Below, in pieces: positions 10,074 through 16,795 of a stretch of DNA of 64,000 nt (its first letter is position 1; every line of letters begins with the position of its first letter). Source of the stretch: Sphingomonas brevis. Its GTDB lineage: Bacteria > Pseudomonadota > Alphaproteobacteria > Sphingomonadales > Sphingomonadaceae. The notes under the pieces were generated by a model, which saw nothing but the letters and a program-made list of their open reading frames with translations, did no database searches and was not told the origin of the DNA. Position numbers and translations under genes: made by a program. The stretch spans positions 186,001-250,000 of the forward strand of contig NZ_JAMGBB010000001.1 of the NCBI RefSeq assembly GCF_023516505.1, written 5' to 3'.

Positions 10074-10454
10074 TTACTTGAGCTCGACGGTGCCGCCGGC
10101 TTCCTCGATCTGCTTCTTGATCTTTTCGGCTTCGTCCTTGTTGACGCCTTCCTTGACGGCCTTCGGCGCGCCTTCGACGAGCGCCTTGGCTTCGCCCAGG
10201 CCCAGGCCGGTGATGGCGCGGACTTCCTTGATGACGTTGATCTTCTTGCCACCGTCGCCGGTGAGGATCACGTCGAACTCGGTCTGCTCTTCAGCAGCCG
10301 GGCCAGCGGCGGCGGCGCCAGCGGCCGGGCCGGCAACGGCGACGGCGGCGGCGGCCGAAACGCCCCACTTTTCTTCGAGCAGCTTCGAAAGCTCAGCAGC
10401 TTCGAGGACGGTCAGAGCCGACAGGTCGTCGACGATTTTGTTCAGGTCAGCCAT
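10074..10454 (-). CDS. rplL: 50S ribosomal protein L7/L12
   Basis: Stalk protein of the large ribosomal subunit that recruits translation GTPases. 126 aa. The N-terminal dimerisation helix is followed by an Ala/Gly-rich hinge (about residues 36-56) and the conserved C-terminal domain beginning [23 protein letters not shown] 10454 has an AGGAG box at good spacing. It follows rplJ with a 58-bp gap, the usual co-transcribed pair. L7/L12 is needed in several copies per ribosome, so extra control in this gap would be normal. Confidence 0.98.
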
Positions 10455-10512
10455 TTTAGTCTCCTAGTGGGGCAGCGGCCCCAAATGTCGTGCGTGGTTT
10501 GAAACGAAAAAC

Positions 10513-11019
10513 TTAAGCTGCGGCCTTGGCGGCGAGAACGCGCGCCAGCTGGCCACCCGGCTCCTTGGCGATGCGGGCGATCTTGGTCGCGGGCGCCTGG
10601 ATGAGGCCCACGATAGTGCCGCGCAGCTGATCAAGCGACGGAAGCGCGGCGAGTGCCTTGATCCCGTTCACGTCGAGCAGCGTATCGCCCATCGCGCCGC
10701 CAACGATCTCAAGCCGATCGTTGGACTTGGCGAACTCCACCGCGACCTTTGCCGCCGCGACGGGATCGACCGAGGTGGCCAAGGCGGTCGGGCCGGTCAG
10801 CATGTCGCCGATCGATCCGTACTTGGTGCCCTCGAGCGCGATTTTGGCAAGCCGGTTCTTCGCAACTTTGAACTGGGCACCGGCATCGCGCATCTTCAGG
10901 CGCAGTTCGGTCGATTGTGCGACCGACAGCCCGAGATTGCGGGTGATTACCACCACGCTGGTCTCGGTGAAGACGTTCTTCAGCTCGGCAACCAGATCGG
11001 CTTTTTGCGAACGATCCAT
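10513..11019 (-). CDS. rplJ: 50S ribosomal protein L10
   Basis: Base of the ribosomal stalk; binds 23S rRNA and the L7/L12 dimers. 168 aa, normal length. The N-terminal region (MDRSQKADLVAELKNVFTE) and the block LGLSVAQSTELRLKMRDAG are typical. The C-terminal helix rich in Ala carries the L12 binding sites. ATG 11019 has an AGGAG box seven bases upstream. It is preceded by a long leader (11020 to about 11280) and a candidate promoter. In most bacteria L10 or the L10-L12 complex represses its own mRNA through that leader. Confidence 0.98.
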   Translation of the reverse strand: MDRSQKADLVAELKNVFTETSVVVITRNLGLSVAQSTELRLKMRDAGAQFKVAKNRLAKIALEGTKYGSIGDMLTGPTALATSVDPVAAAKVAVEFAKSNDRLEIVGGAMGDTLLDVNGIKALAALPSLDQLRGTIVGLIQAPATKIARIAKEPGGQLARVLAAKAAA

Positions 11020-11322
11020 GCCATACTCCTAGTCATTCCCCCTGCCGGACCATCCGGCAAAGGGTTGGAGGCGCAGGCTTCCATTGGGGAAACCCACGTC
11101 TCCGAGATGTCCGGGGGATGGATCGCGAGGCGTCGTTTGAAATCCGACGCACGACGGGAACGCAATGGCGGCCCGTTCTTGAATTCCTTATCCCCGTCTA
11201 GGCCGCGGATTAAGCCACAGACTGGATCTGGGGCAGCGACTGTCTCGGACGAGCGTCACGACCCGAAGGAACGCGACCGCGCGGCCTCTACAGGCAAGTC
11301 GGTGAAAGTCAAGGTACGGGGA
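11020..11322 (-). promoter_or_regulatory. rplJ leader and promoter region (no gene)
   Basis: Three hundred bases upstream of rplJ with no credible coding sequence. A promoter-like TTGACT - 16 bp - TAGAGG lies at 11285-11312 on the minus strand, giving a leader of about 260 nt. Several inverted repeats occur near the gene, for example GCCGGACCATCCGGC at 11044-11058. This fits an autoregulatory L10 leader by position and length. I could not fold it or match it to a known leader family. Confidence 0.5.
11285..11312 (-). promoter_or_regulatory. Candidate promoter of rplJL
   Basis: Minus strand TTGACT (five of six to the -35 consensus), 16-bp spacer, TAGAGG as a weak -10. It lies just past the end of the convergent-side cupredoxin gene. 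An own promoter is expected because rplJ is detached from rplKA here. Confidence 0.5.
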
Positions 11323-11706
11323 CTAACGCACGACGATCTCGCCCGACATTCCAAACATTTTGTGGAAGCTGTGCGAGCATTTCAGGCTGTAGTGCCCTGC
11401 TGCCGGGGCAGTGAGGTGAATGTCGACCGCCTGGCCCGGGGCAACTTCGACTACGCCGTCCGAAATATAGCGTCGATCGGCAGCCACGACACTCGCGGCT
11501 GCAAAGAAATCCGATGCCGTGAAGTCGTGCCCACCGCTCGCGGCATTGGCCACATGCAGAACGTAAGACTGGCCGTGATCCAAAACGATCTTGCTTGGAG
11601 CGAATTTGAAATTCGACATTTGGACCGAGATCGTCGCCGGCTGGGCCAGCGCGGGCGACCCGACAAGCACAATAAGCGGGACTGCAAACAAAAGGGCGAT
11701 GCGCAT
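11323..11706 (-). CDS. Secreted azurin-like cupredoxin (type 1 copper protein)
   Basis: Predicted periplasmic electron carrier or copper-binding protein, 127 aa. The start at ATG 11706 (MRIALLFAVP) is chosen because it gives a clean signal peptide (residues 1-22, ending ALAQ) and has GGGAG upstream; a longer reading frame to 11847 would bury the signal. The candidate copper ligands are H60 and the C-terminal set C110, H115, M120, with the azurin spacing Cys-X4-His-X4-Met. H112 and M117 are nearby alternatives. It is divergent from the secreted phosphatase at 11823, with a short shared upstream region. The redox partner is unknown. Confidence 0.8.
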   Translation of the reverse strand: MRIALLFAVPLIVLVGSPALAQPATISVQMSNFKFAPSKIVLDHGQSYVLHVANAASGGHDFTASDFFAAASVVAADRRYISDGVVEVAPGQAVDIHLTAPAAGHYSLKCSHSFHKMFGMSGEIVVR

Positions 11707-11822
11707 CGTAAGTGCTCCCACGGTGATTGCCCCTGCCGTAAAAGCCTCTATCTGAACGGCGGGTTGCTTGACAAAGCGGCCGCCAAAGTGCCCCTTCCAC
11801 CCCAGTCCGCCGGGGAGCATCG

Positions 11823-12881
11823 ATGTTGAGGCTTTGGGTCTGGCCATTCTTGATATTCGCTTCGGCGCTGGTTTCCGGCGTCGCTACCGCCAAGCCGGCT
11901 CCGGCCCGAATTGTCGCAGTTGGCGATCTTCATGGCGACTATGACGCTTGGGAGGCCATCGCTCGCGGGGCTGGCGTCGTCGACGCCAAGGGAAAATGGG
12001 CGGGCGGGTCCACGGTGCTGGTACAGATGGGCGATGTCGTCGATCGCGGCCCCGACAGCCTCAAGATCATTCATCAATTGATGAGGCTGCAGCGCGAAGC
12101 GCGCAGCAAGGGTGGTCAGGTAATCGCGCTGGTCGGCAATCACGAAGCGATGAACATGACGCGGGACCTGCGCTATGTGCATCCCGGGGAATATCTGGCG
12201 TTCACCGACCGCGATTCCGAGGCTCGACGAAGCAGGATCTACGAAGCCAATAAAACGGCAATCGAGGCCGCCTATCGATCCAGGGATCCGAAAATGACGG
12301 CTGAAGCAATCCGTGCGGCCTGGATCAAGGAAACGCCGCTTGGAATGCTCGAGCATCAATCGGCCTGGGGACCGGAGGGCGAGGTCGGCAAATGGGTGAT
12401 CGGCAATCCCGCGGTTGCCAAGGTCGGCGATTCTCTGTTCGTGCACGGCGGGATCAGCGCCAAATATGCGACCATGTCGCTGGGTGACATCAACCTTGCG
12501 GTGGCGACGGCACTGAAGCGGCGCGACGAAACGCCGGCCTCGATCATCAACGATGGGGCGGGGCCATTATGGTATCGCGGACTGGTAACCCGCGAGCCGG
12601 GCGACGAGGCCACCGTTGCCCCTGTCCCAGCGGGCGCCGCTGCGCCGCTTACGATCGATCAGGAGATCGACCTGGTGTTGACCCATTTCGGGGTCAAACG
12701 GATCGTGGTCGGGCATACGCCTTCGTTGCAGGGGATCATTTCGAACCCTGGCGGGACATTGTGGCGCACGGACAGCGCCATCAGCCGCGCCTATAATGGC
12801 AAGCTGACTTATCTCGAGATTGTTGGGGATCAAGCGACATCGCATGAAGTGACCAGGCCGGCGGGCAAACCATGGGGGTAG
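11823..12881 (+). CDS. Secreted PPP-family / Shewanella-like phosphatase (metallophosphoesterase)
   Basis: Predicted exported metal-dependent phosphatase, 352 aa. A signal peptide covers residues 1-23 (ending ATAK). All calcineurin-fold motifs are present in order: GDLHGD (34-39), GDVVDRG (70-76), GNHEAMN (105-111), HGGI (208-211) and GHTPS (297-301). The pattern VxGNHEAMN with GPLWYRG (247-253) resembles the Shewanella-like branch of PPP phosphatases, whose characterised members act on phosphoproteins; that branch assignment is mine from memory. It ends 3 bp before the CotH-like gene at 12885, so the two are almost certainly one transcript. Substrate unknown. Confidence 0.85.
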   Translation: MLRLWVWPFLIFASALVSGVATAKPAPARIVAVGDLHGDYDAWEAIARGAGVVDAKGKWAGGSTVLVQMGDVVDRGPDSLKIIHQLMRLQREARSKGGQVIALVGNHEAMNMTRDLRYVHPGEYLAFTDRDSEARRSRIYEANKTAIEAAYRSRDPKMTAEAIRAAWIKETPLGMLEHQSAWGPEGEVGKWVIGNPAVAKVGDSLFVHGGISAKYATMSLGDINLAVATALKRRDETPASIINDGAGPLWYRGLVTREPGDEATVAPVPAGAAAPLTIDQEIDLVLTHFGVKRIVVGHTPSLQGIISNPGGTLWRTDSAISRAYNGKLTYLEIVGDQATSHEVTRPAGKPWG

Positions 12882-12884
12882 GTT

Positions 12885-13901
12885 ATGAAATGGTTGATCG
12901 GGGCATTCACAATCCTGGCAACGCCGGCCGCGGCACAGACGACGCCGCTATTCGCGAGTGACGAGCCGCTCAAGCTGACCATAACCGGGCCGCTTGGGGA
13001 CATTGCTCGAACCGCGGAACGATCTGTTGAGCCCCGCGACGCGTCGTTGACCCTGGGCGGAACGGCGGAAACCTATCCGATCAAACTCGCTCCGCGCGGC
13101 ATTACCCGGCGCAAGCGTGAGATTTGCACCTTCCCGCCATTGCGGGTCGAATTCCCGCAAAAGCCGGCGGCGACGTCCCTGTTTGCCCACCAAAGCCGGT
13201 TGAAGCTGGTGACTCACTGCCGGTCATCGGAAGACTTCCAGCAGCATCTGCTGCTCGAATATTCGGCGTATCGCATCTTCAACCTGATCACACCGACAAG
13301 CCTGAAGGCTCGGCTTCTGGCGGTCGACTATGTCGATCCCCAGGCAAAGCGCACGACCAGCCGATGGGGAATGTTCCTTGAGGATTACGACGATGCCGCA
13401 CATCGGCTCGGCCTGACCCGGGCCAATGTCGGCGATCGCGTTGCCGCCAACCAGCTCCAGGCGCGCCAGGCGGCAACCGTTGCGCTGTTCCAATATATGA
13501 TCGGCAATCTCGACTGGTCGATGCGGGCTGGGCCGGCCGGGGAGGGCTGCTGCCACAACAGCCGCCTGCTCGCCGCCAAGACGCCCGGCCTAATTCCAGT
13601 GCCGTACGACTTCGATTATTCGGGCCTGGTCGACGCGCCGTATGCGGCCGTGCCTGAAGGCTTCAAGGTCGAAAGCGTTCGAGAGCGCTCCTACCAGGGC
13701 TATTGCTGGCTCAACAATGACGTGATCGCGGTGGCAGCCGAGTTTCGTGCCCGTCGCCCGGCAATCAATGCCTTGTTCGGACAGATTCCGGGGATGACAG
13801 AGCGGACTGCGCGCAACGCGGTTGCCTATCTGAACGAGTTCTACGCCGAGATCGCAACCGACGATTCGCTCCGCTCGAAGATCCTTAAGCAGTGCCTGTA
13901 G
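12885..13901 (+). CDS. Secreted CotH-like kinase-fold protein (uncharacterised)
   Basis: 338 aa with a signal peptide (1-18, ending AAAQ). Usually such genes are annotated hypothetical. I read a CotH-type atypical kinase pattern: an Arg-Gly plus basic segment near 71-78, KLVTHC (107-112), a conserved Glu in LLLEY (122-126), GNLDWS (207-212, D210 as catalytic-type Asp), N225 downstream and PYDFDYSG (240-247, D242/D244 as metal-type Asp). CotH proteins phosphorylate spore-coat proteins; activity here is inference. Cysteines at 81, 112, 222 and 223 could form disulfides. The gene is coupled to the phosphatase upstream and overlaps the convergent DUF4956 gene by 17 bp. Confidence 0.6.
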   Translation: MKWLIGAFTILATPAAAQTTPLFASDEPLKLTITGPLGDIARTAERSVEPRDASLTLGGTAETYPIKLAPRGITRRKREICTFPPLRVEFPQKPAATSLFAHQSRLKLVTHCRSSEDFQQHLLLEYSAYRIFNLITPTSLKARLLAVDYVDPQAKRTTSRWGMFLEDYDDAAHRLGLTRANVGDRVAANQLQARQAATVALFQYMIGNLDWSMRAGPAGEGCCHNSRLLAAKTPGLIPVPYDFDYSGLVDAPYAAVPEGFKVESVRERSYQGYCWLNNDVIAVAAEFRARRPAINALFGQIPGMTERTARNAVAYLNEFYAEIATDDSLRSKILKQCL

Positions 13902-14589
13902 GCGGAGGCGGAGGCGGAGGCGGTGGCGGCATTTCGGCGTCGGGCGTTGCCGCGCTGCCCGGTCCCTTGGCCGGGTTGAAGTCGCTGAGGTAGCGCTTCA
14001 TCCCCTCGCGCTCGCCATATTCGCTGATCCACAGGGCCATGAAGCAATAGTTGAAGGCAAGGCTCATCACGAGCGCCAGCTCGACCGCCCCGATCCCCGA
14101 AGAAAGGCCGATGCCGACCGACAGCAGGATGTAGAGGGCGTCGCCCGAGCTTTTGAGGCTGTTCTTGAAGCGGACCGCACCGGCGATCCCGCCAAGCGCA
14201 AAGGCCAGGGCGAGGCTGTGCTGGACGACCACGACAATCGAGGTCACGACAGACGGCAGGATCAGGATCGTGCTGATGATCGACTGATCATATTCGTCGG
14301 CTGTGCGCGTCCCCATATAGACCCAGGTCACCGGGAACGAGGTGATGAGGGCACCGATGATGGCGACGAACATCCAGCCCAGGCTTTGGCCGAGAGTCCT
14401 GACCTCTTGCGCCCGGGCGACAGTTTCAAAGGCGCTCGACTTGCCGCCGCCGGCATTGATCAGCGCTTCGGCGCCGCCGATCGGCAAATAGTTTTGCATT
14501 TCCGGATTGTTGTGAATGACCAGCCAGGCGCCCCCGAATATGATGACGTAGTAGATGGTCAGCTGAATTAGTAATCTGGTCGCGCGCAT
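13885..14589 (-). CDS. DUF4956 domain membrane protein
   Basis: Inner-membrane protein of about 234 aa. One transmembrane helix lies near the N-terminus (LLIQLTIYYVIIFGGAWLVI) and several follow at about 75-175. The family signature GGIAGAVRFKNSLKSSGDAL sits in the loop after the middle helices. ATG 14589 is preferred over TTG 14604 because GGGGG lies eight bases upstream. The C-terminus is a run of ten prolines encoded by a GGC/GGA-rich tandem repeat. In other bacteria I recall DUF4956 genes beside CotH and polyphosphate-polymerase (VTC-domain) genes; here it lies between a CotH-like gene and ppk2. Confidence 0.85.
   Translation of the reverse strand: MRATRLLIQLTIYYVIIFGGAWLVIHNNPEMQNYLPIGGAEALINAGGGKSSAFETVARAQEVRTLGQSLGWMFVAIIGALITSFPVTWVYMGTRTADEYDQSIISTILILPSVVTSIVVVVQHSLALAFALGGIAGAVRFKNSLKSSGDALYILLSVGIGLSSGIGAVELALVMSLAFNYCFMALWISEYGEREGMKRYLSDFNPAKGPGSAATPDAEMPPPPPPPPPPTGTA
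13902..13932. repeat. GGAGGC tandem repeat encoding the proline run
   Basis: Several near-perfect copies of the hexamer GGAGGC lie at the 3' end of the DUF4956 gene. On the minus strand they encode the ten-proline tail. Such a repeat can change length by slippage without breaking the frame. Translation of the run should depend on elongation factor P. Confidence 0.8.
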
Positions 14590-14623
14590 GATCGAAGCCC
14601 CCAATTCCCCCGACTAGCTTAGG

Positions 14624-15415
14624 TTAATCGTTCTTGTCATGCCAGCGGTAGGCCGGGATCGGTTTCATCACCCCGTACCGCTCCTTGATCGGATCATGTC
14701 CCAGCTTCGGCCATGGGATGTTCTCGGATGGCAATTTGGTGTCCGGCAGCCGGTCGAGAAGGTCGCGGAGCAGGGTCAGGCGGCCAAGGCGCTGGTCGTT
14801 GAAATCGACCAGGGTCCACGGTGCGTGCGGTGCATCCGTCGCGGCCAGCATCCGCTCCCGAGCCTCGGTGTAAGCGTCGTAAAGGGCGCGGGCCTTGATA
14901 TCGATCGGCGAAAGCTTCCACCGCCGAAGCGGATTGTTGAGCCGGTCGGCGAACCGCTCCTCCTGCTGCTCCTGGTCGCAGCACAGCCAATATTTGTAGA
15001 GGTAGATGCCGTCATCGACGAGCTGCTGCTCGAAGTCGGGGACGGACTTCAGGAACGCGGTGACCTGCTGCGAGGTGCAGAAACCCATTACGGCTTCGAC
15101 GCCGGCACGATTGTACCAGCTGCGGTCGAACAGGCTGATTTCGCCCTTCGCCGGCAGATGCTCGACGTAGCGCTGGAAATACCATTGGTCGCGCTCGCGC
15201 TCCGACGGCGAGGGCAAGGCGATGACATGGCATTGGCGCGGGTTGAGCGTGCGGGCGATCATGTCGATCGAGCCGCCCTTGCCGGCGGTGTCGCGCCCCT
15301 CGAATACTACCACCAAACGCTGCTTGGTTTCCTGGATCCATCGCGCCGCGTCGCTTAGCTCGTGGAGCAACGGCTCCAGCGCATCCTCATATTCCTTCTG
15401 GCTAAGGTGACCCAT
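14624..15415 (-). CDS. ppk2: Polyphosphate kinase 2 family protein
   Basis: Cytosolic enzyme of the PPK2 family, which moves phosphate between polyphosphate and nucleotides. 263 aa, one-domain length. The Walker A loop GRDTAGKGG lies at residues 40-48 and the Walker B-type block LFDRSWYNR at 95-103; the lid-region basic residues appear in ERERDQWYFQRYVEH. Single-domain members usually phosphorylate NDPs or NMPs using polyphosphate; class cannot be fixed by eye. The start MGHLSQ follows the usual N-terminus. It lies 34 bp upstream of the DUF4956 gene on the same strand, so the two may be co-transcribed. Confidence 0.9.
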   Translation of the reverse strand: MGHLSQKEYEDALEPLLHELSDAARWIQETKQRLVVVFEGRDTAGKGGSIDMIARTLNPRQCHVIALPSPSERERDQWYFQRYVEHLPAKGEISLFDRSWYNRAGVEAVMGFCTSQQVTAFLKSVPDFEQQLVDDGIYLYKYWLCCDQEQQEERFADRLNNPLRRWKLSPIDIKARALYDAYTEARERMLAATDAPHAPWTLVDFNDQRLGRLTLLRDLLDRLPDTKLPSENIPWPKLGHDPIKERYGVMKPIPAYRWHDKND

Positions 15416-15465
15416 TACATCCCCCCTGCAGCAAGTGCGGGGACCTTAGCGGTCGCAGCGCATAA

Positions 15466-15505
15466 GAAAAGGGCCGAACCCCGGATCAAGTCCGGGGCCG
15501 GCCCT
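15466..15505 (-). terminator. Terminator of rplKA built from a dispersed palindrome
   Basis: A two-tier stem: outer AGGGCC/GGCCCT (15470-15475 with 15500-15505) and inner CCCCGGA/TCCGGGG (15479-15485 with 15491-15497). On the minus strand it is followed by TTTTC. It starts about 25 bp past the rplA stop. The inner palindrome matches the dispersed repeat type seen at 16834 and 23041. Confidence 0.75.
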
Positions 15506-15529
15506 CAATCTCTCGCAAAGGCGCAGCGC

Positions 15530-16228
15530 TTAGGCGCCGGCGACTTCCGTCGTGTCGAGGCGAACGCCCGGCCCCATCGAGGAGCTGATGGCGATCTTCT
15601 TGACGTACTTGCCCTTGGCACCCGACGGCTTAGCCTTGACGATGGCGTCGACGAACGCATCGAAATTGGCCTTGAGGTCGGCTTCGGGGAAGCTCGCCTT
15701 GCCGATGCCGGCATGGATGATCCCGGCCTTTTCGACGCGGAACTCGACCTGGCCGGACTTGGCGTCCTTGACCGCCTGGCCGACGTTCGGAGTGACGGTG
15801 CCCAGCTTCGGGTTCGGCATCAGGCCCTTGGGGCCCAGCACCTTACCGAGGCGGCCGACGATGCCCATCATGTCCGGGGTCGCGATGACCCGGTCATAAT
15901 TGGTGTCGCCGCCCTGCATGGCTTCCATCAGGTCCTCGGCGCCGACGATCTCGGCACCCGCCTTCTTGGCTTCCTCGGCCTTGTCGCCCTTGGCGAACAC
16001 GGCGACGCGGACGTCCTTGCCGGTGCCCTTGGGCAGGTTGACCACACCGCGGACCATCTGGTCGGCATGGCGCGGGTCGACGCCCAGGTTGATCGCCACT
16101 TCGACGGTTTCGTCGAACTTGGACGTGGCCAGGCTCTTCACCAGGCCGATCGCCTCGGCGACGCCATAATGATTGTTGGGATCGACCTTGCCGTCGAACG
16201 CCTTCTGCTTCTTCGTGAGCTTTGCCAT
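15530..16228 (-). CDS. rplA: 50S ribosomal protein L1
   Basis: L1 stalk protein of the large subunit that binds 23S rRNA and helps release E-site tRNA. 232 aa, normal. Typical blocks are [44 protein letters not shown] and the C-terminal [10 protein letters not shown]. It follows rplK with a 4-bp gap, the standard L11 operon. In many bacteria free L1 represses translation of rplK-rplA mRNA; a site near rplK was not resolved here. Confidence 0.98.
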
Positions 16229-16232
16229 CGCC

Positions 16233-16664
16233 TTAGCCCTCCACTACCTGGAGGCCCATCGCGCGAGCGGAGCCTTCGATGATCTTGGTCGCGGCCTCAA
16301 GGTCGTTGGCATTGAGGTCCTTCATCTTCGCGGTGGCGATTTCCGCCAGCTGCGAGCGCTTGATCGTTCCCGCGCTGACCTTGCCCGGCTCCTTCGAACC
16401 CGACTTCAACTTGGCCGCCTTCTTCAGCAGGAAGCTCGCCGGCGGTGTCTTGGTGGTGAAGGAGAAGCTACGATCCGCGTAGACGGTGATCACCGTCGGG
16501 ATCGGCGCGCTCTTTTCAAGGTCCTGCGTCGCGGCGTTGAACGCCTTGCAGAATTCCATGATGTTGACGCCGCGCTGGCCCAGGGCGGGACCGATCGGCG
16601 GGGAGGGATTGGCGGTGCCAGCCGGCACCTGGAGCTTGATATAGCCCGTGATTTTCTTAGCCAT
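16233..16664 (-). CDS. rplK: 50S ribosomal protein L11
   Basis: Binds the GTPase-associated centre of 23S rRNA and is needed for the stringent response to uncharged tRNA. 143 aa. The family start is [16 protein letters not shown], so ATG 16664 is chosen over the in-frame upstream codon at 16673. The block [22 protein letters not shown] is diagnostic. It heads the rplK-rplA pair. A candidate promoter lies at 16796-16824. It is separated from nusG by the efflux cassette, which is unusual. Confidence 0.98.
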
Positions 16665-16795
16665 TTTTCTCACTCTGTAGTGGAGTTGGGCAGGGCAGGC
16701 CCCGCTTGCGTCCGTTCAAGTTTAGCGGTCCAGACGGCTTCGTCCCGAAGAACTCGGCCTCCCGCAATCCAATGCTGATGCTTTGGAAGGCGGCG

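Follow-up and report, generated by a model that had tools for sequence, protein, structure and literature searches.

A conserved gene set for a probable secreted kinase-phosphatase pair, joined by a polyphosphate kinase gene in Sphingomonas brevis

In Sphingomonas brevis, a 3.6 kb block carries, side by side, genes for a Shewanella-like phosphatase of the PPP family (SLP), a CotH-like protein, a DUF4956 membrane protein, and a PPK2 polyphosphate kinase (Table 1). The block lies in a 64,000-nt stretch of DNA (assembly GCF_023516505.1, contig NZ_JAMGBB010000001.1, 186,001-250,000), which we call the window and whose numbering is used throughout. A preliminary description of this DNA had reported four neighbouring genes at 11823..15415, and all four open reading frames (ORFs) were found at these positions. 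The phosphatase and CotH-like genes lie on the same strand, 3 bp apart, and may be co-transcribed. The CotH-like and DUF4956 genes are convergent and overlap by 17 bp, and DUF4956 is immediately preceded by PPK2 on their common strand. The DUF4956 start is better placed at the ATG at 14589, because 20 aligned homologues begin there; PPK2 is separated by 34 bp from this start and by 19 bp from the ORF as listed. The set of genes is together by more than chance, and we suggest that it specifies a system for reversible phosphorylation in the cell envelope, with a secreted kinase-phosphatase pair as its most likely core.

Table 1. Features of the four-gene block in the window
Feature	Position	Strand	Remarks
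Shewanella-like PPP phosphatase (SLP), probably secreted	11823..12881	+	hydrophobic signal-like N-terminal segment; motifs GDLHGD, GDVVDRG, GNHE, GHTP
CotH-fold kinase-like protein, 338 aa	12885..13901	+	predicted fold; signal-like N-terminus by reading only; conserved cysteines
D210 codon, probable counterpart of CotH catalytic Asp (N-x-D motif)	13512..13514	+	motif and spacing
N225 codon (HN motif)	13557..13559	+	within CotH-like gene
D242-F-D244 codons, probable counterpart of CotH W-D-Y-D site	13608..13616	+	motif and spacing
DUF4956 membrane protein	13885..14604	-	likely start ATG 14589; six long predicted helices, proline-rich tail
PPK2 (TIGR03707 type) polyphosphate kinase	14624..15415	-	export signal not seen by reading

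Relatives were searched among genome contigs, and the best 80 of 93, together with the window and seven further genomes, gave 88 loci. The best 80 came mostly from Alpha- and Gammaproteobacteria and Bacteroidota, with one Hydrogenophilaceae and one Gemmatimonadetes. Short copies such as L001-L010 and L091 were left out, as were G103 and G120 (duplicates of L012 and L024); L026 and L033 share one genome, as do L041 and L045. Within 6 kb of the CotH-like gene, a phosphatase gene was present in 71 of the 88 loci, DUF4956 in 54, a gene for a propeller-like protein in 30, and PPK2 in 15. Among the 55 loci flanked on each side by 4.5 kb or more, the corresponding counts were 46, 38, 19, and 11. Phosphatase, CotH-like, and DUF4956 genes were also present at L092/L170 (G364), which lies outside the 88. 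The conserved association in relatives that the preliminary description had proposed to look for was thus borne out for this trio.

The same trio was traced across genome samples. CotH-like genes were detected in 10 of the 147 genomes sampled from the order, and DUF4956 in 11, namely the same 10, in the same cluster, plus a fragment in G037. A phosphatase query matched 79 of the 147 genomes at E up to 0.001; its strong matches (E 1e-66 or better) came from exactly the same 10 genomes, again in the same cluster, the next best being 6.9e-17. These ten genomes span three genera, and the trio seems to have been gained or lost as a unit, since other sampled genomes of two genera (g7 and g30) have none of the three genes at that strength. 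In the class sample, CotH-like genes occurred in 2 of 289 genomes, including this one.

The CotH-like protein itself had no match in Pfam, NCBIfam, or PDB sequences, and a profile of the 88 CotH-like sequences found nothing among PDB sequences. Structure prediction, which the preliminary description had proposed as a check on its CotH-like kinase fold, gave a CotH fold, and the match was specific, with the next family 7 Z units behind. D210 and D242 are kept in all 88 loci. They probably correspond to the catalytic Asp pair D228 and D251 of Bacillus subtilis CotH, an equivalence drawn from motif and spacing via the 5jd9 chain and not from a printed structural superposition. CotH is a protein kinase, and its D228Q and D251A variants are reported to be inactive (PMC7821199, seen in part). 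Compared with the CotH spore-coat kinases (PF08757; B. cereus 5jd9/5jda and B. subtilis CotH), the proteins studied here occur in Gram-negative hosts, are probably secreted, and are encoded beside a phosphatase gene. Their resemblance to PF08757 is weak: seven of the 88 relatives matched at E up to 0.1 (best 1.4e-4), and the three inspected in detail were below the cut-off. We place the protein in a predicted CotH-fold family outside PF08757.

The assignment of the phosphatase to the PPP/Shewanella-like group in the preliminary description also held. SLP matched Pfam Metallophos (55.1 bits), and its closest solved relatives are the Shewanella-like phosphatases 1v73, 2zbm, and 2z72 (E about 1e-28), with which it shares the PPP metal-site motifs. 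The motifs GDxHG, GDxxDRG, GNHE, and GHT are all present in the window protein, which is nearer to the Shewanella phosphatase than to ApaH or PPP5. Among 18 aligned SLPs, metal-site residues are kept in 17 or 18, and the GHT His in 16, the two other rows being cut stretches. Two of ten close homologues (G103 and G120) end slightly earlier, with a stop inside the match at residues 348/350 and 351/352. The phosphatase of the Bacteroidota locus L072 is likewise of Shewanella type (E 3e-44 to 2z72). Judging from its N-terminal segment, SLP is probably secreted. The comparison with Shewanella concerns the proteins and not gene placement; in the window, SLP adjoins a kinase-like gene.

The window DUF4956 sequence scored 25.3 bits against PF16316 (cut-off 30.6). 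All of the 120 homologues listed carry the family, the near-identical P0121 is annotated with PF16316, and some relatives (L032, L059, and L099) exceed the cut-off. Its predicted structure consists of six long helices (pLDDT 76.4, moderate confidence) and had no clear match among solved structures. At L027, L034, and L042, the module carries a DUF4956 of another subfamily, with about 25-28% identity to most others and an extra C-terminal stretch. These three loci occupy two distinct regions of the CotH-like tree, and the exchange of subfamilies in both suggests that the system needs some DUF4956-type protein. The fragment in G037 (L169) is a 93-aa open frame without a CotH-like gene and is perhaps a remnant. 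In the parts of the literature seen, DUF4956 is otherwise named only within expression tables or text.

Taken as a working model, the secreted CotH-fold kinase would phosphorylate an envelope or extracytoplasmic target, and the secreted SLP encoded next to it on the same strand would take the phosphate off. DUF4956 would act as an inner-membrane partner, either as an anchor or as a route for a phosphate-bearing donor, and cytoplasmic PPK2, in tandem with DUF4956 in this Sphingomonas clade, would tie the system to polyphosphate or nucleotide turnover. The computed footing of this model is the shared gene set, the CotH fold prediction, the kept catalytic-type residues, and the single clade of linked PPK2s; the activities, location, and substrate and the parts played by DUF4956 and PPK2 are inferred. 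Because the set recurs in distant bacteria, the trio may attach phosphate outside the cell and take it off again. A parallel is known from the fungus Phycomyces blakesleeanus, in which an ApaH-like phosphatase carries a CotH domain (PMC8220851, seen in part). There, the two are fused and the phosphatase belongs to the ApaH-like branch of the PPP family, whereas here separate genes encode a CotH-fold protein and a phosphatase of the Shewanella-like branch; the fusion combines CotH with a PPP phosphatase independently of the bacterial set. No report of a bacterial pair of CotH and Shewanella-like phosphatase was found in the open-access literature searched. A recurrent, probably secreted kinase-phosphatase pair in Gram-negatives would offer a tractable system in cultured sphingomonads, such as the block-bearing Sphingomonas rhizophila and S. 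edaphi, for studying substrates and the phosphate donor.

Several observations weigh against this model. Seventeen of the 88 loci have no SLP nearby, at least one of them (L026) owing to a contig end. The phosphatase gene is placed differently by lineage: it lies upstream in the same orientation, downstream in either the same or a convergent orientation, or divergently. These four arrangements require just 3 changes on the CotH-like tree and so represent few independent events. The peptide patterns used to fetch the loci include D210 and N225, and selection thus accounts for part of their conservation; D242, D244, E125, E166, and R174 lie outside the patterns. When the family was compared profile to profile (hhalign) with 21 Pfam-type CotH stretches, of which many belong to a single genus, the match was weak (probability 5.3%, E 0.007). 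The alignment did pair the N and D-x-D columns, but this probability weighs against PF08757 membership at the sequence level. A hydropathy scan flagged neither the CotH-like N-terminus nor that of PPK2, so the probable secretion of the CotH-like protein rests on reading of its sequence. Activity of these proteins was found in no report, and a protein with a kinase fold may lack activity or have sugars as its substrates.

The main rival explanation is a glycan kinase: the CotH-like protein would phosphorylate an exopolysaccharide or envelope sugar and SLP would trim the phosphate, the target being a polymer and not a protein. However, a Pfam scan of ten representatives of neighbour clusters showed no glycan-synthesis family, and CotH itself is a protein kinase (PMC7821199, seen in part), and we regard this explanation as unlikely. 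Pairwise distances of the CotH-like proteins correlated with those of their partners (phosphatase, r 0.69, n 71; DUF4956, 0.50, n 54; propeller, 0.83, n 30; PPK2, 0.58, n 15), with 0 of 2000 permutations in each case. Such correlations are expected of co-inheritance, and they do not separate function from shared ancestry. The propeller-like, secreted-looking protein is a fourth partner (e.g. at L023, L035, L049, and L096), though it was found at none of the 15 PPK2-bearing loci. It matched the SdiA-regulated family in Pfam, with a sub-threshold phytase-like match in one of three scanned, which would fit periplasmic phosphate handling without signalling, that is, a scavenging phosphatase beside a kinase-fold protein acting on a small molecule. 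But the propeller is missing from the window locus, and the fold match is specific to CotH; this reading is therefore still less probable than a glycan kinase.

PPK2s of the TIGR03707 type interconvert polyphosphate and nucleotides in the cytoplasm. The window protein scored 322.5 bits (cut-off 301.8), its closest solved chains are PPK2s, and it is encoded by one of three PPK2 genes in this genome. No VTC gene was found in the genome. Elsewhere, DUF4956 travels with VTC: in a phylum sample, Pfam DUF4956 occurred in 7 of 200 genomes, and all 8 such genes outside this genome (in 6 genomes) had VTC within about 3.5 kb, with Pfam CotH in the same stretch in 5. Streptococci and clostridia likewise have CotH, a poly-phosphate polymerase, DUF4956, and DUF4832 beside pel genes (PMC7112168, seen in part), in line with the association of CotH with DUF4956 and VTC given in the preliminary description. 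In the window as in these clusters, genes for a CotH-fold protein, DUF4956, and a polyphosphate enzyme are neighbours, and the five regions with CotH have a DUF4956 that the module DUF4956 profile picks up (E 2.8e-13 to 2.4e-21). The window differs in having PPK2 instead of VTC and in having an SLP; the SLP profile found none in the 8 VTC/DUF4956 regions, which include short contigs. L161-L165 are canonical clusters with VTC, DUF4956, and a large CotH protein encoded side by side in the same orientation; four follow the order DUF4956-CotH-VTC, and L161 follows CotH-VTC-DUF4956.

That PPK2 takes the place of VTC is thus a fair description of this locus, because the genome is without VTC and other DUF4956 genes sit with it. 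Three findings weigh against a general role: at 39 of the 54 loci that have DUF4956, PPK2 is missing within 6 kb; no export signal was seen in PPK2 by reading; and VTC turned up in 2 of 43 genomes with the CotH-like gene, neither of them among the 33 with DUF4956 at the locus. The search for ppk2 co-occurrence gave a restricted answer, as PPK2 joined the trio only in the window's own lineage. No report of CotH with PPK2 was found in the open-access literature searched.

Given the activity of its type, PPK2 may maintain a donor pool or a polyphosphate level that serves the system in this clade, or it may be a hitchhiker that arrived by chance beside DUF4956 in one ancestor, with no functional tie to the trio. 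PPK2 linkage requires 2 changes on the CotH-like tree (61 rows counted), which fits one gain and one loss, and is confined to 15 loci; the six trio genomes of the order sample without linked PPK2 all have a copy elsewhere. The 15 blocks fall into six left-flank and five right-flank groups, and 10 share one group. Against a hitchhiker, PPK2 stays beside DUF4956 in at least five flank contexts, the tree unites the linked copies in a single clade that excludes 18 unlinked rows (support 99/96; three rows left out and three long rows flagged), and DUF4956 goes with another polyphosphate enzyme gene in every other phylum-sample case. We consider chance arrival a real possibility, albeit the less favoured one.

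The idea in the preliminary description of a membrane step linking polyphosphate to phosphorylation outside the cytoplasm is partly supported. In its strongest form, DUF4956 would be an inner-membrane polyphosphate conduit or anchor, CotH-type kinases outside would use or attach polyphosphate instead of ATP, VTC and PPK2 would be exchangeable cytoplasmic suppliers, and SLP would be the eraser. We regard this form as highly speculative and improbable. If true, it would answer where extracytoplasmic protein kinases, which have no obvious ATP supply, get phosphate. The recurrent kinase-phosphatase pair itself also provides a functional hypothesis for DUF4956, its membrane partner, which in other genomes accompanies genes for polyphosphate polymerase and whose name is rare in the open-access literature searched.

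Other arrangements were observed around the CotH-like gene. Several loci without SLP carry histidine kinase-like and sigma-54 regulator genes upstream instead. At L071, L080, L083, and L084, which lack the phosphatase, the CotH-like gene adjoins members of a cluster with a histidine kinase-like ATPase domain (L071 scanned), a sigma-54 response regulator (L084 scanned), and a small, secreted-looking protein of 138 aa, a possible substrate. In the Bacteroidota loci L068, L069, L072, and L076, the CotH-like and phosphatase genes are preceded by a gene of one cluster, whose L076 member is Bestrophin-like. The S. brevis block and a cupredoxin gene (11323-11847, - strand) sit between genes that we take to be rplA and rplJ. 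Within 10074-16673, they part putative rplK/rplA from rplJ/rplL/rpoB, genes that are usually contiguous.
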